Shown: piece by piece, positions 3 through 32,916 of the stretch
Layout of the letters: each line of letters starts with the position of its first letter
Numbering within the stretch: the first letter of the stretch is position 1
Origin: a virus
Reading direction: 5' to 3' (one strand)
DNA length: 33,762 nucleotides
IMG/VR virus record: IMGVR_UViG_3300030116_002265
Location: 1 to 33,762 of that record
Notes under the pieces: model-generated
Database searches by the model: none
What the model saw: the letters and a program-made list of their open reading frames with translations, nothing else
What the model was told of the DNA's origin: nothing
Program-made: the position numbers and the translations under genes

Positions 3-773
3 GCAATGACTGGATCTGTTGGTAACACGGTAGAAACTGGAACTGGAACTTTTAGTCTAACTGGTAATTCTGCTGAAACTCTAATTGCAGGAACATCATC
101 TTCTACAATAACTTTTACTGTGACCGTTGTTAGTGGTAATCCTTCAAACCATCCTTATTACAATCAAGGATCAACAAATAAGTACGCTATTAATGGATCG
201 ACTGCTACCAGTGATGTTACTTTAACCATGTATGAAGGTAACACTTATAGATTTGATCAAAGTGATAGTAGTAATGATGGTCATCCAATTAATTTTTATG
301 AGACTGCGGATAAAAACACTGCTTATAGCAGTGGTGTTACTTTTAACATAGATGGTTCCACTGTTTCACGAGATCAGTATGTAGACAGTAGCACTTTTAA
401 CGCAGGCACAACGAGATATATAGAAATAACTGTCCCAGCTGGAGCACCAACATTGTATTATCAATGTTATAACCACGCTCTGATGGGATATTTTGGAACC
501 ACTCCTTTTTCTGTATTAATAGTAACGACAACTGGAGCACCAACTACTGGTGTTGTAGGAACAACTGCTCTAGGAGATGAAACAGTTATAGGAACTGCTG
601 ATGTTGCAGTCACTCTAGCTGGTCTTAGTATTAGTGTAGGCACACTTGCCTTAACTGGTACTTCTGTGGTATCTTTAACTGGAGTTAATGCAACTGGTTC
701 GACTGGTGAAGAACAAGTTTATAGTTTAATTAAACCCACGCAAGTGGCTAACTGGATAGAGAAGGCAGCATAA
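3..773 (+). CDS. Virion surface/fibre protein with cupredoxin-like domain (5' partial)
   Basis: The frame is open to the left edge, so the gene probably begins upstream; the first ATG inside is at 6. The visible 255 residues are rich in Thr, Ser and Gly, as in phage fibre and decoration proteins. Numbered from that ATG, residues 70-170 look like a cupredoxin: a His in GHPINF (H93) and a C-x-x-H-x-x-M cluster in YYQCYNHALMG (C154, H157, M160). This is the His, Cys, His, Met ligand set of type 1 copper proteins, and the end resembles the azurin GHSALMKG segment. The rest looks like beta-repeat fibre sequence. The stop overlaps the next start (TAATG), placing it in the fibre operon. A structural role is inferred from neighbours; copper binding is a prediction. 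Confidence 0.7.
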   Translation, partial: AMTGSVGNTVETGTGTFSLTGNSAETLIAGTSSSTITFTVTVVSGNPSNHPYYNQGSTNKYAINGSTATSDVTLTMYEGNTYRFDQSDSSNDGHPINFYETADKNTAYSSGVTFNIDGSTVSRDQYVDSSTFNAGTTRYIEITVPAGAPTLYYQCYNHALMGYFGTTPFSVLIVTTTGAPTTGVVGTTALGDETVIGTADVAVTLAGLSISVGTLALTGTSVVSLTGVNATGSTGEEQVYSLIKPTQVANWIEKAA

Positions 774-1786
774 TGGCAACATATGTTAACAATTTAAGAT
801 TAAAAGAAATAGCAACTGGTGATGAATCAGGAACATGGGGTACTTCAACCAATACAAATCTTGAATTAATTGGTGAAGCACTAGGTTTTGGTACGGAAGC
901 CATAACCACAAATGCTGATACACATACTACGACTGTAGCAGATGGATCGGCAGATGAGGGCAGAGCCATGTATATTAAATATACTGGTACATTAGATTCT
1001 GCATGTACAATAACTATAGGTCCAAATACTTTAAAAAGAGTCCACATGATTGAGAACGCTACAAGTGGATCACAAAATATAATTATATCACAAGGCTCTG
1101 GTGCAAATGTAACCATAGGTCCAGGCGATACAAAAGTCGTTTACCTTGATGGTGCAGGTTCTGGTGCAGCTGTTGTAGATGCTTTTGTGGATTTAGATTT
1201 ATCTGGTGGTTCTGTAAATGTGAGCACAGTCAAAACTAATTCTGGTGATATGACATTTGATTCTGCTGGAGATATTATTCTCGATGCAGATGGTGCTGAT
1301 GTTATATTTAAAGATGGCGGAACATCTATTGCACACTTAACAAACTCAAGTAGCGATTTTGTTATTGAAACAAAAGTACAAGATAAAGACTTTATTGTAA
1401 AAGGAAACGATGGTGGCTCTGGTATTACAGCACTTACAATTGATATGTCTGGTGCTGGAGCGGCGACTTTTAACAATGATGTAACTGCTTTTTCTGACGA
1501 AAGACTTAAAGAAGATATACAACCTATTGTTGGTGGACTTGAAAAAGTTATGCAACTACAAGGTGTAAGTTACAAAAGAAACGATGTTGAAAATGCTAAA
1601 ACACAGATAGGTGTGATAGCTCAACAAGTCGAATCAATCTTACCAGAAGTTGTTTTGACTGCCGATGATGAAATGGGTACAAAATCAGTTGACTATTCTA
1701 AGATGACTGCTGTACTAATAGAGGCAGTAAAAGAGTTAAAACAAGAAATAACACAACTAAAACAACAAATAAATAACGGAGCATAA
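773..1786 (+). CDS. Tail fibre/spike protein with C-terminal S74 self-cleaving chaperone domain
   Basis: 337 residues. The N-terminal part (about 1-60, with GDESGTWGTSTNTNLELI) is of a kind common in marine phage fibre proteins. The middle (140-235) is beta-rich with repeated aspartates (GDIILDADGADVIF). The last 97 residues form a Peptidase_S74/intramolecular chaperone domain beginning at S241 in SDERLKEDI, then QIGVIAQQVESILPEVV and VDYSKM, and ending in a coiled coil. In the endosialidase family this domain assembles the trimeric fibre and cuts itself off just before the Ser of the S-D-x-R-L-K motif, so the mature fibre would be about 240 residues. The start overlaps the previous stop. Confidence in S74 is high; the receptor is unknown. 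Confidence 0.9.
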   Translation: MATYVNNLRLKEIATGDESGTWGTSTNTNLELIGEALGFGTEAITTNADTHTTTVADGSADEGRAMYIKYTGTLDSACTITIGPNTLKRVHMIENATSGSQNIIISQGSGANVTIGPGDTKVVYLDGAGSGAAVVDAFVDLDLSGGSVNVSTVKTNSGDMTFDSAGDIILDADGADVIFKDGGTSIAHLTNSSSDFVIETKVQDKDFIVKGNDGGSGITALTIDMSGAGAATFNNDVTAFSDERLKEDIQPIVGGLEKVMQLQGVSYKRNDVENAKTQIGVIAQQVESILPEVVLTADDEMGTKSVDYSKMTAVLIEAVKELKQEITQLKQQINNGA

Positions 1787-1789
1787 TAA

Positions 1790-3073
1790 GTGGCGATACC
1801 AAGTTCTGGACAATCTTTATCTTTCTCTGCACTTAGAACTGAATTTGTTGGTGGGTCTAGTGCAATTAGTTTAGGTGACCTTTACAGAGGTGGTTCTAAT
1901 ATTTTAAAAAAAGCTGGAGATAATCAAGCTACAAATCTTGCCGCTAGTGTTGCTACTTCTGGTTCATTAGATGTTAGTGATTATTACGATCAAGCAAAAG
2001 GATTTACTTTCACTTATTCTACTACTTTTTTGAGTGGATCAAGTGGAACAGATCAAAATGTATCAACATTGTTTGGTGATGATTACGATGTTAATTATCC
2101 AAAGAATGTTGTTATACCATCAGGTATAACACTAGGATCTAACAACACAGCAGAATATGGTTTAGAAGTAGATTCTGGTGGAGCTGGTACAATAACAATT
2201 ACTAATAACGGAAACATTATTGGAGCGGGTGGAGCTGGTGGATCAGCTGGAGCCGCAGGTACTGGTGGAGCGGGTGGAGCTGGAGGCAATGGATCAGCTG
2301 GAGGCGATGCCGTAAAAGCCGCAGTTGCATGTACCATTATAAATAACGGAAGTATCTTAGCTGGAGGCGGTGGTGGAGCCGCTGGTGGTGGAGGTGGACT
2401 AGGTGGAGCTCTTCAACAACAGCAACAAACCACTGGTCAACAAGGTCCGACTTATTATGCTGGTGGATATGCTACACAACAATATATTTGGCAAGGAATT
2501 TTTCAACAAGGTTTTGGAAACCCTATAGGTGCTCAAGCTAACTGGGGTCCTGGAAATCCAGATGGTATAGTTGGGACAACAGCATCATCTCATCCTCGTT
2601 ATATTCCAGGTTTGGCTGGACAGACTTCATTTACATTTGGACAGTATACTTATTATAGAGGTGGCTATAGAGGTGCTAACCAATTTAATACTTTCAACAC
2701 CCTCTATAATATATATAGACAATTTCCTCAATCACAACAAACTCAAGTGGCTGGACATGCAGGAGCCGCAGGTGGAGCTGGTGGATTAGGAAGAGGATTT
2801 AATAATCAACCTGGTGGAGACTCTGGTGCATCTGGAGGTTCTGGAACAACTGGTCAAGCTGGAAACGGTGGAAACGGTGGAAACGGAGGCGATGGTGGTG
2901 GCTATGGTCAAGCTGGTTCATCTGGTCAAGCTGGTCAAGCGGGAACAAATTCATCTACTAATGGGTCTGCCGCAGGTAGTGCAGGTAGTGCGGGAGCGGC
3001 AGGTAATTATATCGAAGGAATTTCAAACGTAACTTTAACAAATAACGGCACAGTCGCAGGAGGCACAGAATAA
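1790..3073 (+). CDS. Glycine-rich tail tip/fibre protein
   Basis: 427 residues from a GTG start two bases after the previous stop. The N-terminus (MAIPSSGQSLSFSALRTEF, then ISLGDLYRGG) is a recurring module of marine phage fibre-associated proteins. Two long Gly/Ala-rich stretches (about 140-205 and 320-410) consist of GGAGG, GNGG and GQAG repeats, and a Gln/Tyr-rich segment lies between them (about 207-318). Glycine-rich sandwiches of this kind form polyglycine II lattices in the adhesin tips of some T4-like phages, so a receptor-binding tip is a reasonable inference. It could instead be a decoration protein. Codon repeats in the DNA suggest the Gly regions can change length. Confidence 0.75.
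   Translation: MAIPSSGQSLSFSALRTEFVGGSSAISLGDLYRGGSNILKKAGDNQATNLAASVATSGSLDVSDYYDQAKGFTFTYSTTFLSGSSGTDQNVSTLFGDDYDVNYPKNVVIPSGITLGSNNTAEYGLEVDSGGAGTITITNNGNIIGAGGAGGSAGAAGTGGAGGAGGNGSAGGDAVKAAVACTIINNGSILAGGGGGAAGGGGGLGGALQQQQQTTGQQGPTYYAGGYATQQYIWQGIFQQGFGNPIGAQANWGPGNPDGIVGTTASSHPRYIPGLAGQTSFTFGQYTYYRGGYRGANQFNTFNTLYNIYRQFPQSQQTQVAGHAGAAGGAGGLGRGFNNQPGGDSGASGGSGTTGQAGNGGNGGNGGDGGGYGQAGSSGQAGQAGTNSSTNGSAAGSAGSAGAAGNYIEGISNVTLTNNGTVAGGTE
2861..2949 (+). repeat. Short tandem repeats inside the glycine-rich gene
   Basis: Three near-perfect 9-base copies (GGAAACGGT/A) run from 2861 to about 2889. The following bases hold repeated GGTCAAGC units, also seen at about 2853. They keep the reading frame and encode Gly-Asn-Gly and Gly-Gln-Ala units. 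Such repeats are prone to slippage in multiples of three. Confidence 0.6.
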
Positions 3074-3432
3074 TGGCTATATCATATACATGGTCTATAC
3101 AAAAACTTTATACAAAAGATATAACAGAGGGTGGTCAAACTTATACTGATGTTATAAAAAGAACAATAGGAACTTTAACTGGAACACAATCAGGTGAAGA
3201 AGTTATTCACGGTTTTGACCTTGATTTAAGAAATCCTTCCTCATGGTCTGATTTTACTGCATATGATTCACTGTCAGAAGCTAATGTTGTTTCTTTTGTA
3301 GAAACAAGAATAGGGTCAGACATGATAGCTTCTATTAAAGCAGAAATGGAAAACATGATGGCAACTAAACTAGAGTATGCTGGTGCAACTATAAAAGGAA
3401 CTGATGAGAATCCAACTTTTCCTTGGAGTTAA
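3073..3432 (+). CDS. Small conserved phage protein (DUF7936-like)
   Basis: 119 residues, start overlapping the previous stop (TAATG). It begins ISYTWSIQKLYTKD and has a middle DLDLRNPSSWSDFTAYDSLSEA followed by a helical end. The overall pattern (an N-terminal YxW strand, a TPYDSLTE-like segment, a helical C-terminus) recalls a small family common beside fibre genes in marine phages that I know as DUF7936. The family assignment is from memory. Function is unknown; its place between the fibre genes and the oxygenase run suggests a virion or assembly role. Confidence 0.65.
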   Translation: MAISYTWSIQKLYTKDITEGGQTYTDVIKRTIGTLTGTQSGEEVIHGFDLDLRNPSSWSDFTAYDSLSEANVVSFVETRIGSDMIASIKAEMENMMATKLEYAGATIKGTDENPTFPWS

Positions 3433-3972
3433 ATGAATAAAATTTTAAACTTACTTTCAGAGTCACAAGTTTCTCTGTTAAAATCACATTTTGATTATGT
3501 CTGTAATATGCTTCCAAGAAGCATGAGTGATTCTAATATGATAGGACATAACTCTCACGAAATGTATGCAGATCCTATAACTGAAAATATCTTAAACTAT
3601 GTACATCCAACTATTCAAGAGGCGTATGGTAAAGAGTTATGCCCTACTTACTCTTTTTGGAGAAGATACTATGAAGGACAAACTTGTGCCGCACATAAAG
3701 ATAGACCAGCTTGTGAAGTTAGTATTACTTTGAATGTAGGTGGTACACCTAGAAGTGACTGGAGTATATTTGTAGATAATAAAGAATTTAGTTTAAGCGA
3801 AGGACAAGGTGTTTTATATAAGGGTTGTGATCAAATGCACTGGCGAAATGCACTGCCTTATGAAAGCCATACACAAATTTTTTTGCATTTCATAGAAAAA
3901 GATGGTAAGTTCTATCCGAAACATAAGTACGATGAAAGACAATCTTTATATCATGAGGCTGTCCAGAGATGA
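3433..3972 (+). CDS. 2OG-Fe(II) oxygenase-like protein 1 (prolyl-hydroxylase type)
   Basis: 179 residues, starting directly after the previous stop. The double-stranded beta-helix signature is visible: H88-K-D90 in CAAHKDRPACEVS, and the distal H136 in CDQMHWRNAL, followed by QIFLHF. This fits the phage family ending HWR...QvFLHyv, related to prolyl 4-hydroxylases, which use Fe(II), O2 and 2-oxoglutarate. The residue ten after the distal His, normally Arg or Lys to hold 2-oxoglutarate, is H146, so cosubstrate binding may be unusual. First of seven consecutive genes with this fold pattern. The substrate is unknown; it could be a virion protein, a host protein or a nucleotide. Confidence 0.75.
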   Translation: MNKILNLLSESQVSLLKSHFDYVCNMLPRSMSDSNMIGHNSHEMYADPITENILNYVHPTIQEAYGKELCPTYSFWRRYYEGQTCAAHKDRPACEVSITLNVGGTPRSDWSIFVDNKEFSLSEGQGVLYKGCDQMHWRNALPYESHTQIFLHFIEKDGKFYPKHKYDERQSLYHEAVQR

Positions 3973-3975
3973 GAT

Positions 3976-4542
3976 ATGAAAAGAAATATTATTGTTGCAA
4001 AGAACGCTATAAGTTCTGATTTATGTAATGCTATAATCAACACAACAAAAAATACCTTTACACCTGCTCAGATAGGTGGAGATTCAAGTAGAGACGCAAC
4101 AATAAGAAGAAGCGAAACAAGTTGGTTAAGAGGATCAATAAAACATCTTGAGGTGTATACTCCAATATTACAGCTTATAAAAAAAGTTAATCAAGACTTT
4201 TATGGCTTTGACTTGACAGATCCAGAGCCTTTTCAAATAACAAGATACGATGAACAAAATCAAGGGTTCTATCATCCTCACGAAGACGGAGTTTACGACC
4301 CACTTCCAGTTGGTAGTTTTGTAAGAAAGTTGTCTTTGTCTATTCAACTTACCTCACCAGAATACTATGAAGGAGGAGAGTTTGAGTTTCCAGATGATAA
4401 AGAAAAATTTAATGTAGAGGATTCTAAACAACAAGGGACAGCTATATTTTTCCCCTCTTATATAAAACACGGTGTAAAACCAGTTACAAAAGGCACGAGA
4501 TATAGTTTAGTTTGTTGGGTGTTGGGACCGATGTTTGCATGA
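3976..4542 (+). CDS. 2OG-Fe(II) oxygenase 2 (PKHD/PiuC-like hydroxylase)
   Basis: 188 residues with the clearest oxygenase signature of the seven: iron ligands H102-E-D104 (in YHPHEDG) and H165 (in YIKHGVKPV), and R175 exactly ten residues later for the 2-oxoglutarate carboxylate. The strand EGGEFEFPD and the PFQITRYDEQNQGFYHPHED segment are typical of PKHD-type hydroxylases. The expected reaction is hydroxylation of an amino-acid side chain or small molecule with 2-oxoglutarate decarboxylation. It follows the previous gene by three bases, and its stop overlaps the next start (ATGA), so translation is coupled. High confidence in the family, none in the substrate. Confidence 0.88.
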   Translation: MKRNIIVAKNAISSDLCNAIINTTKNTFTPAQIGGDSSRDATIRRSETSWLRGSIKHLEVYTPILQLIKKVNQDFYGFDLTDPEPFQITRYDEQNQGFYHPHEDGVYDPLPVGSFVRKLSLSIQLTSPEYYEGGEFEFPDDKEKFNVEDSKQQGTAIFFPSYIKHGVKPVTKGTRYSLVCWVLGPMFA

Positions 4543-5093
4543 GAATAGAAGTATTTCCGACACTGCTTTATTGCTATCATTTAGAAAATCAAAATCAGAT
4601 AAAAGAAAAAGTAGAAAACTATTATGACAAACACAAGAATGAGAGTGCTACGCCTAATGAATGGAATTGTGATTTGTTCACATCCTATGGCACAAACACA
4701 TTTCCTATACAAGAATGTCTAGACGCTTTTAATCCAATATTAGAAGAGTTTCAAAAAGAAACAAAACTATTTGGAAAAATAGTTTTAACAGATATGTGGT
4801 TAAATGTGTATCAAAAACAAAACTGGCAAGAAAAACACGTTCATTCTCCAGGTCAATGGTCTAGTGTATATTATGTTCACTTCGATCCAAACGAACATAG
4901 AGCAACTAAATTTCATAATCCGATTGAGACATTACTTGCTTCCAATGGCATTAAAGAAAACTGTGTATCTCCCACGGTAAAAGAAGGAGATATGGTTATT
5001 TTTCCCGCATGGCTAGAACATGCCGCACCAATGAATAAATCTTCTAAGTTGAGATCCACTATATCGTTTAATTTTTTTATTGAAGGAAACTAG
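4539..5093 (+). CDS. 2OG-Fe(II) oxygenase-like protein 3 (2OG-FeII_Oxy_5 type)
   Basis: I place the start at 4539 (ATGA overlap with the previous stop, giving MRIEVFPTLL) rather than 4512, because family members begin with this VFPTPLY-like segment. The protein has 184 residues. The motif WLNVYQKQNWQEKHVHSPGQWSSVYYV and the end DMVIFPAWLEHAAP...LRSTISFNFF match the family known as TIGR02466/2OG-FeII_Oxy_5. Candidate metal residues are H100 and H102 (an HxH in place of HxD) and H161, with R172 as the 2-oxoglutarate anchor. It shares the family of the next gene, so the pair may be an old duplication. Confidence 0.82.
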   Translation: MRIEVFPTLLYCYHLENQNQIKEKVENYYDKHKNESATPNEWNCDLFTSYGTNTFPIQECLDAFNPILEEFQKETKLFGKIVLTDMWLNVYQKQNWQEKHVHSPGQWSSVYYVHFDPNEHRATKFHNPIETLLASNGIKENCVSPTVKEGDMVIFPAWLEHAAPMNKSSKLRSTISFNFFIEGN

Positions 5094-5096
5094 AGA

Positions 5097-5702
5097 ATGA
5101 ACGTGCAACTTAAAGACTGTTTTCCAACACCACTATATAGTTCGTATTTAGATATAGACACAAATATATATATTAAAAAGGTGTATGAAGAAGAAAGTAA
5201 ATCTAAAGGTAGACGAAGAAGCAACACGGGTTGGCAGTCTCTTGATTTAGATGTAAAACAATACAAAGAATTATTTGACAAGATAAATCCTCACATAATT
5301 GAATATTACAAAATATTTAATTGTTCGGCAGAATTACACATGTCTAATGCTTGGTTTAATATAAATAGGTACAAAGATATGAACTCATCACATCATCATG
5401 CCTCTTCAGCCGTATGTGGAATTTTATATTTTAAAGTGCCAGACAATAGTGGAGACATTGGTTTTGAGAATCCTAATCCTTTTATTGGGTCTACTTGGAT
5501 TCAAGGCACAACAGACGATACATTAAATAAATATAATGCAGAAACTATTTATTATAAATCAGAAGAGAAATTATTAATTTTATTTCCAGGTTATTTAAGA
5601 CATGTGGTAAGACCAAACATGTCAAATGAAGATAGAATATCTATGGCTTTTAACACAAATGTTTTTTTCAAAGGAGACTTTAATGAACCTAGAAAACTAT
5701 AA
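5097..5702 (+). CDS. 2OG-Fe(II) oxygenase-like protein 4 (2OG-FeII_Oxy_5 type)
   Basis: 201 residues, three bases after the previous stop. Its layout matches its neighbour: an N-terminal CFPTPLYSSYL, a central SNAWFNINRYKDMNSSHHHASSAVCGILYF, then LILFPGYLRHVVRPN...EDRISMAFNTNVF. Candidate iron ligands are H99 and H101 (HxH form) and H169, with R180 for 2-oxoglutarate. An ENPNP segment at 124-128 parallels the FHNP segment in the preceding protein. Its 3' end overlaps the next gene by 20 bases. Family confidence is high; the biological substrate is unknown. Confidence 0.82.
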   Translation: MNVQLKDCFPTPLYSSYLDIDTNIYIKKVYEEESKSKGRRRSNTGWQSLDLDVKQYKELFDKINPHIIEYYKIFNCSAELHMSNAWFNINRYKDMNSSHHHASSAVCGILYFKVPDNSGDIGFENPNPFIGSTWIQGTTDDTLNKYNAETIYYKSEEKLLILFPGYLRHVVRPNMSNEDRISMAFNTNVFFKGDFNEPRKL

Positions 5703-6333
5703 AAAAATAGTTCAAGAAAGATTCCCAATAGATCCAAAGAATTTACCTTACTATATTGTTTATGATGATTTTTTACCTGCTCACGAGTTTGGTAATTTAA
5801 AAAGTTACTTGTCAAGTGATTTTCCTTGGGGAATTGCAAATAAATTAAATTATGATGATCAAAACCCATACTTAGTAAGAAAAATATATGACGTTGAACA
5901 CCCAGCTAGACATGAGTGGACATCTCATATTGATACAGAGCCTTTTGTTTATATAACACAAAAAATAGGCATGGTTGCTATGTTAAGATTAAAAGCAAAT
6001 ATGTATTTTAATAGTCACGTTAAGGATATACATTATCCTCACATTGATTATCAATTTCCACATCAAGGAGCTTTGTTTTATTTAGATGACTGTGACGCTC
6101 CTACTTACATGTCAGATGGAGTGGGTATTGAAAGTAAACAAAATAGACTTTTACTTTTTAACGCATCAACGGCTCATTCTAGTTCAGCACCAACTGATAA
6201 AAGCTATAGACAAACTATTAACATTAATTATTTTGGAGGAGGTATTCGTAATGATTACTTAAGATTAATTAAAGATCCTACTGTAATATCTGAACATGTT
6301 CCTTTTACGATTAAGCCAGATGGGAGAACATAA
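5683..6333 (+). CDS. 2OG-Fe(II) oxygenase-like protein 5
   Basis: The start at 5683 is chosen because AAGGAG lies seven bases upstream; a longer frame back to 5626 would overlap the previous gene further without a ribosome site. The protein has 216 residues. It begins with the usual YYIVYDDFLPAHEFGNLKSYL helix-strand entry of phage oxygenases. Iron ligands are H120-I-D122 (YPHIDYQF) and H165 (ASTAHSSSAP), with R176 as anchor in KSYRQTINI. GALFYLDDCD and RLLLFN form the expected core strands. The TAATG junction couples it to the next gene. Confident on fold and ligands, not on substrate. Confidence 0.82.
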   Translation: MNLENYKKIVQERFPIDPKNLPYYIVYDDFLPAHEFGNLKSYLSSDFPWGIANKLNYDDQNPYLVRKIYDVEHPARHEWTSHIDTEPFVYITQKIGMVAMLRLKANMYFNSHVKDIHYPHIDYQFPHQGALFYLDDCDAPTYMSDGVGIESKQNRLLLFNASTAHSSSAPTDKSYRQTININYFGGGIRNDYLRLIKDPTVISEHVPFTIKPDGRT

Positions 6334-6896
6334 TGCAGTTTCAAACATATCAATCAAAACTAATAGAAGATAATCATCAAGAGTTTTTAACAGAATGCGA
6401 AAGAGCAGTAGCTAAATTAGATGATAACTTTCCAGGTGAAGACAAAACGTGGAGTTATTACAAATATAATTTTTTCGTTGTCACTGCGGGAAGTAAACTG
6501 TTCTATAATTTATTTAAAGAAATGCAATGGTGTATTAGAAATTTCTGCCAAACTAATGAGCCTCTTTGGTGGGGATGTTGGTTAAATTACCATGAGTCAG
6601 ACAAAGTATTAGACTGGCATAATCATGGTTCAGATTATCATGGATATGTATCTATTGAACCAAAAAACACTGTTACTGAGTTTAAACAATGGAAAGTTAA
6701 TAATAAAATAGGACAAATCTACATAGGAGAAGGTGGACATGAACACAGAGTTGTTGTTAATGAAAACTTTGACACACCTAGAATTACTCTTGGTCTTGAT
6801 ATTTATAAAAACTTAAATTTTTTTGAAGACCTAAAAGAAGAAGATGGCGTTGTTACAACCAAAGTATTAGGTAATATGTGTTACATACCATGTTAG
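6333..6896 (+). CDS. 2OG-Fe(II) oxygenase-like protein 6 (HxH variant)
   Basis: 187 residues. It contains WWGCWLNYHESDKVLDWHNHGSDYHGYVS and, later, GQIYIGEGGHEHRVVV...TPRITLGLDI. The likely metal residues are H96 and H98 (HxH form) and H136 or H138, with R150 as the 2-oxoglutarate anchor. The many Trp and His residues around the site are typical of phage members. It is more diverged than its neighbours, so the assignment rests on motif order and context. The last seven bases overlap the next gene. Confidence 0.68.
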   Translation: MQFQTYQSKLIEDNHQEFLTECERAVAKLDDNFPGEDKTWSYYKYNFFVVTAGSKLFYNLFKEMQWCIRNFCQTNEPLWWGCWLNYHESDKVLDWHNHGSDYHGYVSIEPKNTVTEFKQWKVNNKIGQIYIGEGGHEHRVVVNENFDTPRITLGLDIYKNLNFFEDLKEEDGVVTTKVLGNMCYIPC

Positions 6897-7429
6897 AAAA
6901 ATCTAGTTTTATTTATTTTGAAAATTTTCTCCCTACAAATTATTTTGAGGAACTTCAACAGTTAATGACAAGTGGAGACTTTGAATGGTTTTATAGAAGT
7001 CAATCAACAGAGAGTGATAAAGAGTCAAGTTTTACACACGCTTTATATGCTGATGAAAGTGGACAAGTCGCAACAAGCCATCATTGCGAAAAATTTAAAA
7101 CTCTGTTTGATGAAATGTTAAAAAAGTTTGGTGGAGAAAGAATAATAAGAGCAAGAGCTGTTTTGTACACTAAAAGAAATGAAATAACTTACACTGGAAA
7201 ACACTATGATGTTATTAACTTTGATTCGAAACCAGTGCAAGATCCTATTAAAATAGCATTGTTGAACTTTCATACATGTAATGGTGGAACAGTAGTCGGA
7301 AACACAAAAGTACCTTCAGTTGAAAATTCTGCTATACTTTTTAATAACACAACTGCTCATAGTGGTTTTATACAAAGTGATACTCCAATAAGAATTGTAT
7401 TAAACTTTGTGTTTGTTGCCAATAATTAG
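6890..7429 (+). CDS. 2OG-Fe(II) oxygenase-like protein 7
   Basis: I choose the ATG at 6890 over the GTG at 6878, because family members begin near FIYFENFLPTNYFEELQ. The protein has 179 residues. Iron ligands are H105-Y-D107 (GKHYDVINF) and H157 (TTAHSGF), with R168 as the 2-oxoglutarate anchor in TPIRIVLNF. GGTVVGNTK and SAILFNN are the strands expected before the distal His. It closes the island; a 20-base gap then leads to the large tail protein gene. The family is clear and the substrate unknown. Confidence 0.8.
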   Translation: MLEKSSFIYFENFLPTNYFEELQQLMTSGDFEWFYRSQSTESDKESSFTHALYADESGQVATSHHCEKFKTLFDEMLKKFGGERIIRARAVLYTKRNEITYTGKHYDVINFDSKPVQDPIKIALLNFHTCNGGTVVGNTKVPSVENSAILFNNTTAHSGFIQSDTPIRIVLNFVFVANN

Positions 7430-7449: not shown

Positions 7450-9309
7450 ATGCCTTTAACATCACTAAAATTTAGACCAGGTATCAACAGAGAGATAACC
7501 TCATACTCAAATGAGGGTGGTTTCTTTGATTGTGAAAAAGTAAGGTTTTATGCAGGATTTCCAGAAAAAATAGGTGGTTGGGTTAAACAATCTGACAACA
7601 CATATCAAGGGACTGCAAGAGCTTTACACAATTGGGTTGCTTTAGATAACTCTAATTTTATGGGTGTTGGAACACATCTTAAATATTACATAGAAGAGGG
7701 TGGAAAGTTTAATGACATAACACCTATTCGTAAAACATCTACAAACACTATTACATTTTCTGCAACAAATGGATCTGCTGAGTTAACAGTTACAGATTCA
7801 TCTCATGGTGCAGTAGCGAATGATTTTGTTACAATATCTGGTGCAGTTAGTTTAGGAGGCAACATTACTGCCGCCGTACTAAATACAGAACATCAAATAA
7901 CTTCTGTAGTGGATGGTAATTCATATAAAATTACCGCAAGTGCAACAGCTAATGCATCTGATAGTGGTAATGGTGGTTCTGGTGTTGATGGCGTATATCA
8001 AGTAAATGTAGGTTTGGACACTGCCGTTGGAGGTAATGGATGGGGGGCTGGAGGTTATGGTGGTGTGAATGCTGATCTATCTACATTTGGTTGGGGTGAA
8101 GCAGCAGCTAGTGGGACAACTGCTCAAATTCGTTTATGGTCACATGATAACTTTGGCGAGGACTTACTCATCAATGCAAAAGATAGTCCTATTTTTTATT
8201 GGGACAAATCAAATGGTCTCGGAACACGAGCCGTGAACTTAACGTCTGTAGCTGGTGCTTCAAACGTACCAATTATTGCAAAGCAAATACTTGTGTCAGA
8301 CATTGATCGACACATTATTGTTTTTGGAACAAATGCACTGGGAAGCACGGATCAAGATCCATTGTTAATTAGGTTTGGATCACAAGAATCTTTAACTGAT
8401 TTTACACCCACTGCAACAAATACTGCTGGTGACTTAAGGCTTGGTAGTGGTTCTACTTTTGTTCAAGCAGTAGAAACAAAACAGCAGATACTTGTATTTA
8501 CAGATAAAGCTGTATTCTCTATGAGATTTATAGGTCCACCATTTACATTTGGACTGCAAGAACTTTCAAAAAATATTACAATTATGAGTCCTAAATCTGC
8601 AATAGCAATTGATGATGCAGTGTTTTGGATGGGTAAAGATAGTTTTTATGTGTATGGAGGACAGACACAACAGATACCTTGTTCTGTACGAGATAAAGTA
8701 TTTTTAGATTTTAATACCTCTCAATCAGAAAAAGTATTTGCTGGTGTTAATTCTAAATGGGGTGAGATCTGGTGGTTCTATCCTTCTGCAAGTAGTGAAG
8801 AAATAGATAAATATGTTATTTATAATTATTTAGAAAAGACATGGTATTATGGATCATTGTCTAGAACTGCTTGGCATGACAGAGGTATACGAACTTTTCC
8901 GATTGCCGCAGGGTCATCTTATTTATTTGAACATGAAAATGGAAATGATGACGATGGATCTGCAATGACTGCCTCTGTTGAAACGAGTCAAATGGATATT
9001 GGAGACGGTTATCAATTTAGTTTTATAAAACAATTAATTCCAGATATAACTTTTAACGGATCTGATGTCTCTACTCCTGCCGCGACTTTTACATTACAAG
9101 CTAGAAACGGCCCAGGTAGTCCTTACAGTAACACTTCTGCTGGAACAAGTACAAGAACAGCCACGGCTCCAGTAGAACAATTTACAGATTTGGTTAATGT
9201 AAGATTAAGAGGACGCTCTTTTAACATGAAACTTGAATCAACGGGACAAGGAGTAATGTGGAAACTAGGAACACCAAGGGTAGATATTAGACCAGACGGG
9301 AGGAGATAA
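7450..9309 (+). CDS. Probable phage stabilisation/tail protein (P22 gp10-like role inferred)
   Basis: 619 residues. The N-terminus (KFRPGINREITSYSNEGGFF, then KVRFYAGFPEKIGGW) is a strongly recurring entry motif of a large virion protein in marine podoviruses, often annotated as phage stabilisation protein after P22 gp10. The body is beta-rich, with WGEAAASGTTAQIRLWSHDNFGEDLL and repeated DKAVFSMRF/DDAVFWMGKDSFYVYGG segments that look like propeller blades. The C-terminus (NVRLRGRSFNMKLES...RVDIRPDGRR) is a compact beta domain. Such proteins close the head-tail junction. The assignment is from remembered family similarity plus context. The TAATG overlap couples it to the next gene. Confidence 0.7.
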   Translation: MPLTSLKFRPGINREITSYSNEGGFFDCEKVRFYAGFPEKIGGWVKQSDNTYQGTARALHNWVALDNSNFMGVGTHLKYYIEEGGKFNDITPIRKTSTNTITFSATNGSAELTVTDSSHGAVANDFVTISGAVSLGGNITAAVLNTEHQITSVVDGNSYKITASATANASDSGNGGSGVDGVYQVNVGLDTAVGGNGWGAGGYGGVNADLSTFGWGEAAASGTTAQIRLWSHDNFGEDLLINAKDSPIFYWDKSNGLGTRAVNLTSVAGASNVPIIAKQILVSDIDRHIIVFGTNALGSTDQDPLLIRFGSQESLTDFTPTATNTAGDLRLGSGSTFVQAVETKQQILVFTDKAVFSMRFIGPPFTFGLQELSKNITIMSPKSAIAIDDAVFWMGKDSFYVYGGQTQQIPCSVRDKVFLDFNTSQSEKVFAGVNSKWGEIWWFYPSASSEEIDKYVIYNYLEKTWYYGSLSRTAWHDRGIRTFPIAAGSSYLFEHENGNDDDGSAMTASVETSQMDIGDGYQFSFIKQLIPDITFNGSDVSTPAATFTLQARNGPGSPYSNTSAGTSTRTATAPVEQFTDLVNVRLRGRSFNMKLESTGQGVMWKLGTPRVDIRPDGRR

Positions 9310-18516: not shown

Positions 18517-18725
18517 AAGAAGGTCCGTTAAAAGACGCAATGAACAACGATCATGGTAACTTAGTTATCAAACAAGAATTTAGTACAATAAAAATTGTAA
18601 ATAATGTTCTTGTAAAAGAAGTTGTAACAAGAGATTATGATTTTCATGGAGACTATATAGACACCATGAGTTCACAACCCTTGATGCAAATGGATAAAAT
18701 ACTACCAAAAGAAACGATGCACTAA
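18513..18725 (+). CDS. Small hypothetical protein
   Basis: 70 residues, coupled to both neighbours by overlapping start and stop codons. The sequence is charged (KEGPLKDAMNNDHGNLVIKQ, then VKEVVTRDYDFHGDYIDTM) with no membrane segment and no motif I recognise. Position after the peptidase would suit a lysis or late accessory protein, but with no hydrophobic helix it is not a typical holin. Confidence 0.6.
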   Translation: MKEGPLKDAMNNDHGNLVIKQEFSTIKIVNNVLVKEVVTRDYDFHGDYIDTMSSQPLMQMDKILPKETMH

Positions 18726-19378
18726 TGGCATCATTGATATGTAACCTGCCCTCTGAAGATGTGTGGGTTAGAAAAGAGTATTTAAGAGATCATGAAGATG
18801 GTCATGGAGAGTTTGTTAAGGGGATTTGGGTTACGGCTAAATCTGTTCCTGGGAGAGCGTTTTATTTCGAAACTTATCTTCCTGATTATGGTGCTCTTTA
18901 CGATAAGCTACCTATTTCTGCATTCGTTTCTGACCCAGTTGTCCCTACTCCAGATATGGATCTTTATAATCTTCAGTTTTGGAATTGCATGGATTATGGC
19001 GTGGTCGCTATTCACAAGCAATTTATAGGATCGATGGACTTTGAAGTATTTACAAGAGATCACGGAACATTGAAAGGTAGCTACATTGCTACCTTGGATA
19101 ATTATCATGATAGTGTAGATAGTATTGATTACTCAACAAGTCATAAACCAGCAGAACACAAGTCACATAATTTATTAGAACTAGAAAACGGTCAGTATTG
19201 TTTGTATCCAAACAACAGAATGAGAGTATATGATAACTCACTCACACCAGATCAACCATTGCAGCCAGACTTCAAAGTTAGCACAGAAATATATCAAGTA
19301 GAAAATGGACAGAAGTTCAGATTAGGCGATACAGACGAGTATTTTTGGAAAACAAAGGACGAAGATAAAAAAAATTAG
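18725..19378 (+). CDS. Hypothetical late protein, unknown function
   Basis: 217 residues, starting within the previous stop (TAATG) and ending the rightward block. It looks globular and beta-rich with many Tyr, Asp and His residues: EDVWVRKEYLRDHEDGHGEF, GRAFYFETYLPDYGALYDKL, LQFWNCMDYGVVAIHKQFI. Repeated aromatic-acidic clusters recall small structural or adaptor proteins, but I do not recognise the family. Its final codons contain an A-rich run that doubles as the T-run of a leftward terminator candidate. Confidence 0.65.
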   Translation: MASLICNLPSEDVWVRKEYLRDHEDGHGEFVKGIWVTAKSVPGRAFYFETYLPDYGALYDKLPISAFVSDPVVPTPDMDLYNLQFWNCMDYGVVAIHKQFIGSMDFEVFTRDHGTLKGSYIATLDNYHDSVDSIDYSTSHKPAEHKSHNLLELENGQYCLYPNNRMRVYDNSLTPDQPLQPDFKVSTEIYQVENGQKFRLGDTDEYFWKTKDEDKKN

Positions 19379-31391: not shown

Positions 31392-31603
31392 GTAGTCACC
31401 TTGTGTGGTCTCATTGCTCTCACCTTTAGCTCATTTTCCATTTTACCGATTGTGTTTGTTACATATCTTCTTTCTTTAGATACTGGATGTGTATAAATAT
31501 AAGTATCAGAGTGTGGATGATCTTCGTCCAGTTTATTTCTGTAAGTATACATACTTCTAACAAACAACTCTATTTCTTTTTGTGATATTTTAAGATGTGC
31601 CAT
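31388..31603 (-). CDS. Small hypothetical protein
   Basis: 71 residues with a good ribosome site (GAGAGGAG, seven bases). It overlaps the methyltransferase 3' end by 14 bases and the next start by four. The sequence is helical and charged (KISQKEIELFVRSMYTYRNK), then HPHSDTYIYTHPVSKERRYV, suggesting a small mixed fold. No known family. Cotranslation with the methyltransferase suggests a shared time of expression. Confidence 0.6.
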   Translation of the reverse strand: MAHLKISQKEIELFVRSMYTYRNKLDEDHPHSDTYIYTHPVSKERRYVTNTIGKMENELKVRAMRPHKVTT

Positions 31604-32660
31604 TAAATTCTCCTCTCAAAGCTAGTCCTAAATACATTGCATTTTGGGGACATATTGCATTCCCCAAGCCAATTAATCGTTGTTTTCTGTCTTTGTCCAA
31701 TTCTGTGGATATCCCATTAGGAACTCCGTGAAGTTGGCGTTCAACTTCCCACCATGATAATTGTTCTTCAACACTTCTCTCGGTAACGATTTGTCTCTGC
31801 TCTCTTTCCACGTTGGATTGTATGATGCGTCCTTCCAATCTCTCGCAAGTGGTGTTGGATAATTCCAGGTTTTCATTCTTGGTGGTCTTAGCGTCACTCC
31901 GTCCATCATTGCTTGAGCTTCTGCTTCCGTCATTTCTCCATTCTCCACTTTCTTTCTGAAGATCATTGTTTGTCCCTCCGAGGCATGACCGAAACCTTTG
32001 GTCGTTGGAGTTGGATACAAACTCATTGTCATTGGATCTAACTGCTCTCTCAGATTGCTCGGTTTCTTCCGTCCCTTTCTGTGACCTTCTTGCATTTTCT
32101 TCGTTGCTTCTGCACTCCTTGGGGGAAGATGATCCATCGTGTTCGGTGTTGCGTAAAGATTTACAGATGATCCAGAGTCTGTCCCTTTTGTGCCATGCTC
32201 CGATTGATGAAGACGGAAATACAAATGTCCTCGTACAGTAGTCGATGCTTTCCATTTTAAAGAGAACCTCGTCCAATCCCAACGAGAGATGTCCATAAAC
32301 ATTTTCGTAAATGACAAAAGAGGGTCTTGTTTGTTCAACAATTCTAAAGATGTACGGGAAGATGTGGCGAGGGTCTTCTTGCCCTCTGCGATTTCCCGCA
32401 ACGCTGAACGGTTGACACGGATATCCAGAGGTGAGGATATCTGGTTTTTTTGGAATAAATCTTTTTGGGTCATTTGCGATCTCCTTTACATCGTTAAAAA
32501 TTGGTACACCTGGAAAATTCTTTTTTAATACTTTGTGACACCATTGTTCGGTATCACAAAATAAAATTGGTTTGGATAGTTTTGCACCTTCATCTAAGCC
32601 AAGTGCAAATCCTCCGATGCCACTACATAAATCAACATGAGTTTTATTTAAATGTTTCAT
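31590..32660 (-). CDS. C5 cytosine DNA methyltransferase
   Basis: 356 residues from ATG at 32660, chosen because AAGGAG lies five bases upstream; another ATG at 32678 is possible. Motif I DLCSGIGGFALGL at 10-22, motif IV GYPCQPFS with catalytic C82, motif VI ENV at 119-121, motif VIII KRDRLWI at 158-164, and motif X GLGNAICPQNAMYLGLAL near the C-terminus. It transfers methyl from S-adenosylmethionine to C5 of cytosine, probably to protect phage DNA from host nucleases. Residues about 170-300 are Ser/Asn/Glu-rich, with NTEHDG, SNSNDQR and SNTTCERLEG units, and this part is shared with a second gene in another frame. Target site unknown. Confidence 0.93.
   Translation of the reverse strand: MKHLNKTHVDLCSGIGGFALGLDEGAKLSKPILFCDTEQWCHKVLKKNFPGVPIFNDVKEIANDPKRFIPKKPDILTSGYPCQPFSVAGNRRGQEDPRHIFPYIFRIVEQTRPSFVIYENVYGHLSLGLDEVLFKMESIDYCTRTFVFPSSSIGAWHKRDRLWIICKSLRNTEHDGSSSPKECRSNEENARRSQKGTEETEQSERAVRSNDNEFVSNSNDQRFRSCLGGTNNDLQKESGEWRNDGSRSSSNDGRSDAKTTKNENLELSNTTCERLEGRIIQSNVEREQRQIVTERSVEEQLSWWEVERQLHGVPNGISTELDKDRKQRLIGLGNAICPQNAMYLGLALRGEFNGTS
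31673..32473 (-). CDS. Overlapping gene within the methyltransferase (phage LMGYPxxWT-motif protein)
   Basis: 266 residues, wholly inside the methyltransferase in a different frame of the same strand. ATG at 32473 is preceded by TAAAGGAG at seven bases, an excellent ribosome site in the middle of another gene. The protein carries a pattern I know from phage proteins near C5 methyltransferases: NLYATPNTMDHLPPRSAEA, SLYPTPTTKGFGHASEG, WNYPTPLARDWKDAS, then GGKLNANFTEFLMGYPQNWT at the end. The repeated (L/N)YxTP units and LMGYPxxW are conserved in that family, so this is not a chance open frame. Function is not established; partnership with the methyltransferase is the obvious guess. Confidence 0.78.
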   Translation of the reverse strand: MTQKDLFQKNQISSPLDIRVNRSALREIAEGKKTLATSSRTSLELLNKQDPLLSFTKMFMDISRWDWTRFSLKWKASTTVRGHLYFRLHQSEHGTKGTDSGSSVNLYATPNTMDHLPPRSAEATKKMQEGHRKGRKKPSNLREQLDPMTMSLYPTPTTKGFGHASEGQTMIFRKKVENGEMTEAEAQAMMDGVTLRPPRMKTWNYPTPLARDWKDASYNPTWKESRDKSLPREVLKNNYHGGKLNANFTEFLMGYPQNWTKTENND

Positions 32661-32916
32661 TTTGCTCCTTTTCTTCATCTATTTGTCTTGAGTACAAAGT
32701 TATTCCAAAGTCATAACCTTCTTGATAATAGTGATGAGATTGAGTGGTATCTCTTATACCATGTATCAATCCATCAACTACACCATCTCTGAACGCCTTT
32801 AAAATTTCGTTAACTGATAGTTGCCCTACAGAACCATGTCTATCTATAAAACAACTAGGTATTTTTTCAAAATATCCATTTGGAATATTAGTTTTAAATT
32901 TTATTTTCTTTGTCAT
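32644..32916 (-). CDS. Small hypothetical phage protein
   Basis: 90 residues. A beta start (KIKFKTNIPNGYFEKIPSCF) is followed by LSVNEILKAFRDGVVDGLIH and HHYYQEGYDFGITLYSRQ. The DGxxxGxxxxxxxHYYxxGYDFG arrangement is familiar from small phage proteins of unknown role. The 3' end overlaps the methyltransferase start by 17 bases and the 5' end touches the previous stop, so it is part of the same unit. Confidence 0.62.
   Translation of the reverse strand: MTKKIKFKTNIPNGYFEKIPSCFIDRHGSVGQLSVNEILKAFRDGVVDGLIHGIRDTTQSHHYYQEGYDFGITLYSRQIDEEKEQNETFK

Follow-up and report, generated by a model that had tools for sequence, protein, structure and literature searches.

In marine phages, genes for 2-oxoglutarate (2OG)-Fe(II) oxygenases rank with the most multiplied, and both their large number per phage and their clustering are already known (PMC9599517, PMC9602691, PMC3037559): up to five are carried by T4-like cyanophages (PMC3037559), eight non-orthologous kinds, with 'ferrochelatase' partners, by pelagiphages of the HTVC023P type (PMC9599517), and 24 genes by S-SCSM1 (PMC9602691). 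The viral functions of these enzymes are stated not to have been specifically investigated (PMC9602691), and the PHROG groups phrog_61 and phrog_2954 are reported to be seasonally enriched (PMC11561400). In the current work, seven consecutive genes of this type (named ox1 to ox7, and together the "island") were analysed at positions 3433-7429 of IMG/VR virus record IMGVR_UViG_3300030116_002265, the whole of which (33,762 bases) represents the window. The content of this island was found to follow the type of an adhesin encoded directly upstream.

Seven consecutive genes of the 2OG-Fe(II) oxygenase type

The seven open reading frames (ORFs; all ORF and gene calls being mechanical) are located on the plus strand at spacings of about -20 to +3 bp and are packed as one operon-like block within the virion-gene strand, flanked on the left by a glycine-rich adhesin gene and a DUF7936 gene, and on the right by a gene for a P22 gp10-like stabilisation protein (below, gp10). 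Improved start positions were obtained for ox3 (ATG at 4539, generating a 4-bp ATGA overlap with ox2), ox5 (ATG at 5683) and ox7 (GTG at 6878 or ATG at 6890). Promoter-like sites numbered 54, below the 64.5 expected from shuffling, which makes them uninformative on internal promoters, and no further oxygenase gene of the island families was found elsewhere in the window.

That all seven are proteins of the 2OG-Fe(II)-oxygenase-type fold or superfamily, as an initial annotation had claimed from the sequence alone, is near certain from homology and fold, the class being assigned by Pfam for ox2, ox3 and ox4, by the Pfam hits of relatives for ox5 and ox7, and by the predicted fold for ox1 and ox6. 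The annotation had pointed to an HxD or HxH pair followed by a single His and usually an Arg in each gene. The metal triad is indeed fully invariant across all five family alignments (the profiles were derived from the same loci as those analysed, and they cross-match), but when these proteins are shuffled, 9-45% of the copies still contain the HxD/E/H...H...R motif. The motif alone was for this reason rejected as evidence, and it is homology and fold that carry the assignment.

The protein encoded by ox2 (3976..4542) matches PF13640 (6.7e-15; 56.3 bits versus the Pfam cut-off of 27) and contains the complete HxD...H...R arrangement, with H102, D104, H165 and R175 invariant in 14 sequences. 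Its family profile retrieves the PBCV-1 collagen prolyl hydroxylase (5c5t, 3.8e-12) as closest solved sequence relative, which suggests that ox2 specifies a prolyl-4-hydroxylase-like enzyme. Both ox3 (4539..5093, with HxH...H...R) and ox4 (5097..5702) match PF13759 (3.2e-18 and 9.6e-22, respectively) and, above cut-off, TIGR02466 (1.3e-18 and 1.2e-22). The ox5 (5683..6333) and ox7 (6890..7429) products belong to phrog_274 (2e-35 and 1.8e-29), a group bearing the PHROG name DNA endonuclease V. These two proteins of the window have no PF13640 hit themselves; that family is matched by 11 of 31 relatives (best 9.5e-7), and H119, D121, H164 and R175, representing the triad and the Arg, are invariant in the 31 sequences.

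Searching the PDB by sequence, with profiles for ox1 and for ox5/ox7, produced no significant match, and profile-profile comparison of ox1 (3433..3972; phrog_2954, PHROG name ferrochelatase) with the other island families was too weak, the alignments being shallow; structure was therefore used, with a single AlphaFold2 run each for ox1 and ox6, performed without templates or metal. The ox1 model (predicted local distance difference test score, pLDDT, 90.6) displays a double-stranded beta-helix, and its 50 best Foldseek matches in the PDB are all of the 2OG-oxygenase type (best 1.3e-7), including a PKHD-type oxygenase, the chlorella-virus collagen prolyl hydroxylase, PiuC, PHD2 and ALKBH5, with a few uncharacterised entries such as 3bvc and 2rg4. 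In the ox1 family H88, D90 and H136 are invariant (21 sequences), giving the HxD...H triad, and no Arg or Lys is conserved 8-13 residues past the distal His, where the motif of the initial annotation would place it (R138, which is invariant, is found at +2, and H152 at +16). Because this usual residue is absent, use of 2OG by ox1 is not certain; the model-based assignment at fold level nevertheless stands, since some subfamilies position the 2OG-holding residue elsewhere. The predicted fold of ox6 (6333..6896; phrog_2696, HxH...H...R; pLDDT 87.5) is likewise of this type, with matches to 3bvc (6.9e-5), a prolyl hydroxylase (2.2e-4) and a mimivirus lysyl hydroxylase, but these are intermixed with plain cupins, which makes its case weaker than that of ox1. 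Weak PF13759 matches are seen in 14 of 17 ox6 relatives (best 0.0095), and hhalign (80%) points to kinship between ox6 and ox3.

Subfamily membership is common to two pairs, namely ox3/ox4 (PF13759) and ox5/ox7 (phrog_274; blastp 8.8e-10, hhalign 96.7%), only the first of which (the genes at 4539 and 5097) had been recognised in the initial annotation. Its view that the genes are too divergent for recent duplication holds: the best pairs are only about 21-23% identical (about 23% for the best), and recent tandem duplication was rejected.

Misleading family names

The PHROG names of several of these proteins do not agree with the assignments above. No ferrochelatase family occurs among the Pfam hits of 21 phrog_2954 members, nor is a ferrochelatase found among the 50 best fold matches of ox1, and a scan of 31 phrog_274 members, for which the name refers to DNA endonuclease V (T4 denV), is led by PF13640 and contains no endonuclease family. 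If this re-annotation holds, statements on phage 'ferrochelatase' and haem or iron metabolism (PMC9599517, PMC11561400) require correction, as does 'DNA endonuclease V' in cyanophages. One part of the phrog_3531 profile matches ox1 and the other part ox2, which, read from the profile and not from an actual fused protein, suggests a natural ox1-ox2 fusion and hence a working pair. Certain island members of related loci (L006 1737-2438 and L011 5495-6892, among others) match DUF6445 and phrog_1644, 'minor coat protein', and carry HxD...H...R; they look like another wrongly named oxygenase subfamily.

Conservation of the slot in related and cultured phages

Related loci were retrieved by means of the gp10-like gene, the 80 used being the best 80 of 311 matches; a screen of 84,980 prokaryote species genomes, directed at the host, gave no relative of this protein. 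For the survey, 49 loci (window counted) with at least 75% gp10 identity and sufficient upstream DNA were considered, and the slot between the tail-fibre genes and the gp10-like gene was found to contain oxygenases in 48 of these. The exception, L041 (9501-10001), has an empty slot, with a 141-aa gene immediately preceding gp10, despite the presence of a glycine-rich adhesin. Complete islands (n=47) contain one to eight oxygenases each (median 4), which account for 179 of 200 slot genes, the remainder being QueC-like genes, phrog_7084, one pyridoxal phosphate (PLP) enzyme and unknowns. The slot is thus a conserved one, occupied nearly exclusively by such enzymes. In relatives with gp10 identity below about 60% the island is mostly absent. 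When loci were instead collected via the ox1 family, 80 further ones were obtained, with a second oxygenase at most 300 bp away in 75.

Several cultured phages present a comparable arrangement. In Pelagibacter phage Mosig EXVC030M (MT647606), six consecutive oxygenase-type genes separate the tail-fibre genes from neck genes, and six occur within ~4 kb after the fibres, with two small genes interspersed, in Prochlorococcus phage P-RSM4; HTVC023P and HTVC033P encode several oxygenases, as does the single-cell virus AG-345-E08, and in Syn33 one ox7-like gene abuts a glycine-rich gp38 adhesin. The island setting is found in podoviruses and myoviruses. Similar islands in related phages, whose absence the initial annotation had named as a refutation, are therefore present; the run of seven that it called striking is real, but this phage group regularly has islands of one to eight, and cultured myoviruses offer runs of about six.

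Two further observations concern island content. QueC-like PP-loop genes lie within the islands of L021, L022, L025, L031, L050 and L011, that of L031 also containing a Cys/Met-type PLP enzyme. An extra oxygenase is located upstream, on the other side of the fibre block, in L005 (1791-2396), L009 (2366-2983), L015 (1814-2467) and L029 (1918-2487).

Co-variation with adhesin type and exchange of genes

The adhesin gene of the window (1790..3073, plus strand; phrog_10745, with a weak match to the tail-fibre group phrog_11439) encodes a glycine-rich tip adhesin, designated type A, with 47% Gly within a 60-aa window, which, judged by its composition alone, would resemble the polyglycine adhesins of the T4 gp38 type. 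It is preceded by fib773 (773..1786, plus strand), a tail-fibre gene (tail-fibre PHROGs) with a C-terminal S74 intramolecular chaperone (PF13884, 9.3e-19). Co-variation was assessed in 37 loci following removal of near-duplicates, with oxygenase subfamilies and adhesin types defined by single-linkage clustering.

Loci that share an adhesin type tend to have oxygenase subfamilies in common (r 0.77, and partial r 0.76 when gp10 identity is controlled for; permutation p 2e-4), the mean Jaccard index at 78-88% gp10 identity being 0.47 for the same adhesin type versus 0.03 for different types. The type-A adhesin and a core consisting of ox1, ox2 and ox5 occur together in 18 of 18 loci, neither being found without the other, and on the gp10 tree adhesin type A switches at least 6 times versus 12.6 expected with shuffled labels. 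For the first gene of the island the correlation with adhesin type is strong (0.83), neither the first nor the last tracks gp10, and the gene adjoining gp10 gives a partial r of 0.04 with gp10. Within type A, adhesin divergence correlates with that of ox5 (0.60) and ox1 (0.51) and little with that of gp10 (0.19), while fib773, the other neighbour of the adhesin, is uncorrelated with the oxygenases. The oxygenase set therefore co-varies with the type of the adjacent adhesin and not with the neighbouring gp10.

Two closely related loci (L003 and L015; 97.6% gp10 identity) are devoid of exactly ox3 and ox4, the seam (GAATAGAAG|...TTTAATGAACC) being situated past the stop of ox2 and ahead of the ribosome-binding region of ox5, which places the approximate exchange unit at 4552..5676 of the plus strand. 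Between the window and L015, the ratio of non-synonymous to synonymous substitution rates (dN/dS) is 0.06-0.54 for the five shared oxygenases, 0.05 for gp10 and 0.34 for the adhesin, which indicates that the shared oxygenase genes are under constraint. The ox1, ox2 and ox5 core is exchanged together with one adhesin type, and other members are gained or lost as whole-gene units. The initial annotation had considered a switchable set, and this idea stands in the sense of modules exchangeable between phages, by whole-gene insertions and deletions and by a core moving with the adhesin; nothing suggests switching within one genome.

Such exact whole-gene insertions and deletions would also be produced by an insertion hot spot which gathers small mobile genes of a common marine-phage family, with the core moving with the adhesin by adjacency alone, and fibre regions are known hot spots. 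We nonetheless consider this explanation unlikely, given that one fold class makes up 90% of slot genes, that gp10, equally near on the other side, does not co-vary, and that the five shared oxygenases are constrained at the dN/dS values given above.

Proposed function

The reading we favour, at a probability of roughly 45%, is that the island represents a modular cassette, expressed late and composed of 2OG-Fe(II)-type oxygenases, which is matched to the receptor-binding tip and acts on the fibre or tip protein, the adhesin being the putative substrate. Modification of fibre or tip proteins, one of the functions put forward in the initial annotation, is favoured because oxygenase sets track adhesin type, whereas the substrate itself is still inferred; further support is derived from the repetition of the setting in independent phages (Mosig, P-RSM4, HTVC033P, HTVC023P and Syn33) and from the identity of the closest solved relative of ox2, a peptidyl-prolyl hydroxylase of a virus. 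Judging from strand and position, the cassette would be expressed late. Its enzymes would act as hydroxylases on residues of the freshly synthesised adhesin or fibre, with ox2 possibly acting as a prolyl-hydroxylase-like enzyme and ox1 as its partner. Hydroxylation may then alter folding, stability or receptor contact of the tip; each adhesin type would need its own enzyme set, and extra island members would add optional modifications.

Several points weigh against this proposal. The adhesin and the core oxygenases adjoin, so that linked joint transfer could yield the same pattern, linkage and function being inseparable here, and the last island oxygenase tracks adhesin type weakly (r 0.28). 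Oxygenases are present in several loci without a glycine-rich adhesin, for which reason such an adhesin was rejected as a requirement. Adjacency to fibre genes is not universal, as Mosig has further oxygenases near its replication genes, and no study of a hydroxylated phage protein or fibre was found in the literature searched, which consisted of open-access papers.

Both oxygenases and adhesin type might instead follow the host, the enzymes being host-matched auxiliary functions that act on host metabolites, surface molecules or defence. The same PHROG groups have been interpreted as auxiliary metabolic genes that show enrichment in seasonal pelagiphages (PMC11561400), the oxygenases have been read as partners of 'ferrochelatase' (PMC9599517), and some islands also contain QueC-like, PLP-enzyme or DUF6065-like genes. 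However, the 'ferrochelatase' partner from which the iron/haem idea originates has an oxygenase fold, and in both podoviruses and myoviruses the island follows directly on the adhesin and is embedded in the virion-gene strand. We find this explanation doubtful, and rank it first among the alternatives, before hitchhiking at a hot spot.

Ranked last, and in our judgement very improbable, is modification of DNA or nucleotides, for instance oxidation of methylated bases. A C5-cytosine methylase is encoded at 31590-32678, on the strand opposite to the island, and a DNA repair role has been proposed for 2OG oxygenases of T4-like cyanophages, as quoted in passages of PMC3037559 and PMC9146016. Against this, none of the seven proteins has a TET/JBP hit in Pfam, the 'endonuclease V' label of phrog_274 is unsupported, the island belongs to the virion strand and is remote from the polymerase/primase/helicase block, and co-variation with adhesin type would not be predicted.

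Extending the favoured modification of the tip, we tentatively suggest that marine phages may possess dedicated, exchangeable multi-enzyme hydroxylation cassettes for their own adhesins, with a core set per adhesin type, which would constitute a post-translational layer of host recognition. Tying oxygenase content to the adhesin offers a concrete substrate, testable in cultured pelagiphages.

Other features of the window

The plus strand carries virion and lysis genes from position 1 to ~19.4 kb, and the minus strand specifies DNA polymerase, helicase, primase and the C5-cytosine methylase. Between the adhesin and the oxygenases lies the gene for a small DUF7936 protein (3073..3432, plus strand; PF25590, 2e-9). 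The right border of the island, which the initial annotation had termed a tail protein, is more exactly the P22 gp10-like stabilisation protein (7450..9309, plus strand), recognised by tblastn to annotated phage stabilisation proteins. A partial tail-fibre ORF (6-773, plus strand) has, by eye only, a cupredoxin-like ending (YYQCYNHALMG) suggestive of a copper-binding fibre domain. The product of 18725-19378 (plus strand) matches phrog_3704, 'ferredoxin', at 4e-108, yet is without a ferredoxin-type cysteine cluster or Pfam hit, and this name is probably another wrong PHROG name.

Comparison with known systems

Three points are new with respect to the open-access papers searched: the revised interpretation of phrog_2954 and phrog_274, the conservation of the slot in this phage group and the co-variation with the adhesin. 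Pelagiphages of the HTVC023P type likewise have several non-orthologous 2OG genes in close proximity, one of them adjoined by a 'ferrochelatase', and homologous families were confirmed in HTVC023P; these were described as near but non-adjacent metabolic genes with a ferrochelatase partner (PMC9599517), whereas in the window the partner itself has an oxygenase fold, the run comprises seven genes and its content follows adhesin type. T4-like cyanophages (PMC3037559, PMC9602691) share PF13640, PF13759 and homologs of phrog_274 and phrog_2954, some of which adjoin fibre genes, but theirs are often scattered over large genomes, and the jobs proposed are nitrogen signalling, metabolism or DNA repair. 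Mosig EXVC030M resembles the window in its row of six between tail-fibre and neck genes, and differs in being a myovirus in which two of the six are annotated as ferrochelatase and endonuclease V, and in which haem oxygenase and bilin reductase follow. The PBCV-1 collagen prolyl hydroxylase (5c5t), closest solved sequence relative of the ox2 family, is from an algal virus, and the adhesin of the window is not a clear collagen repeat.

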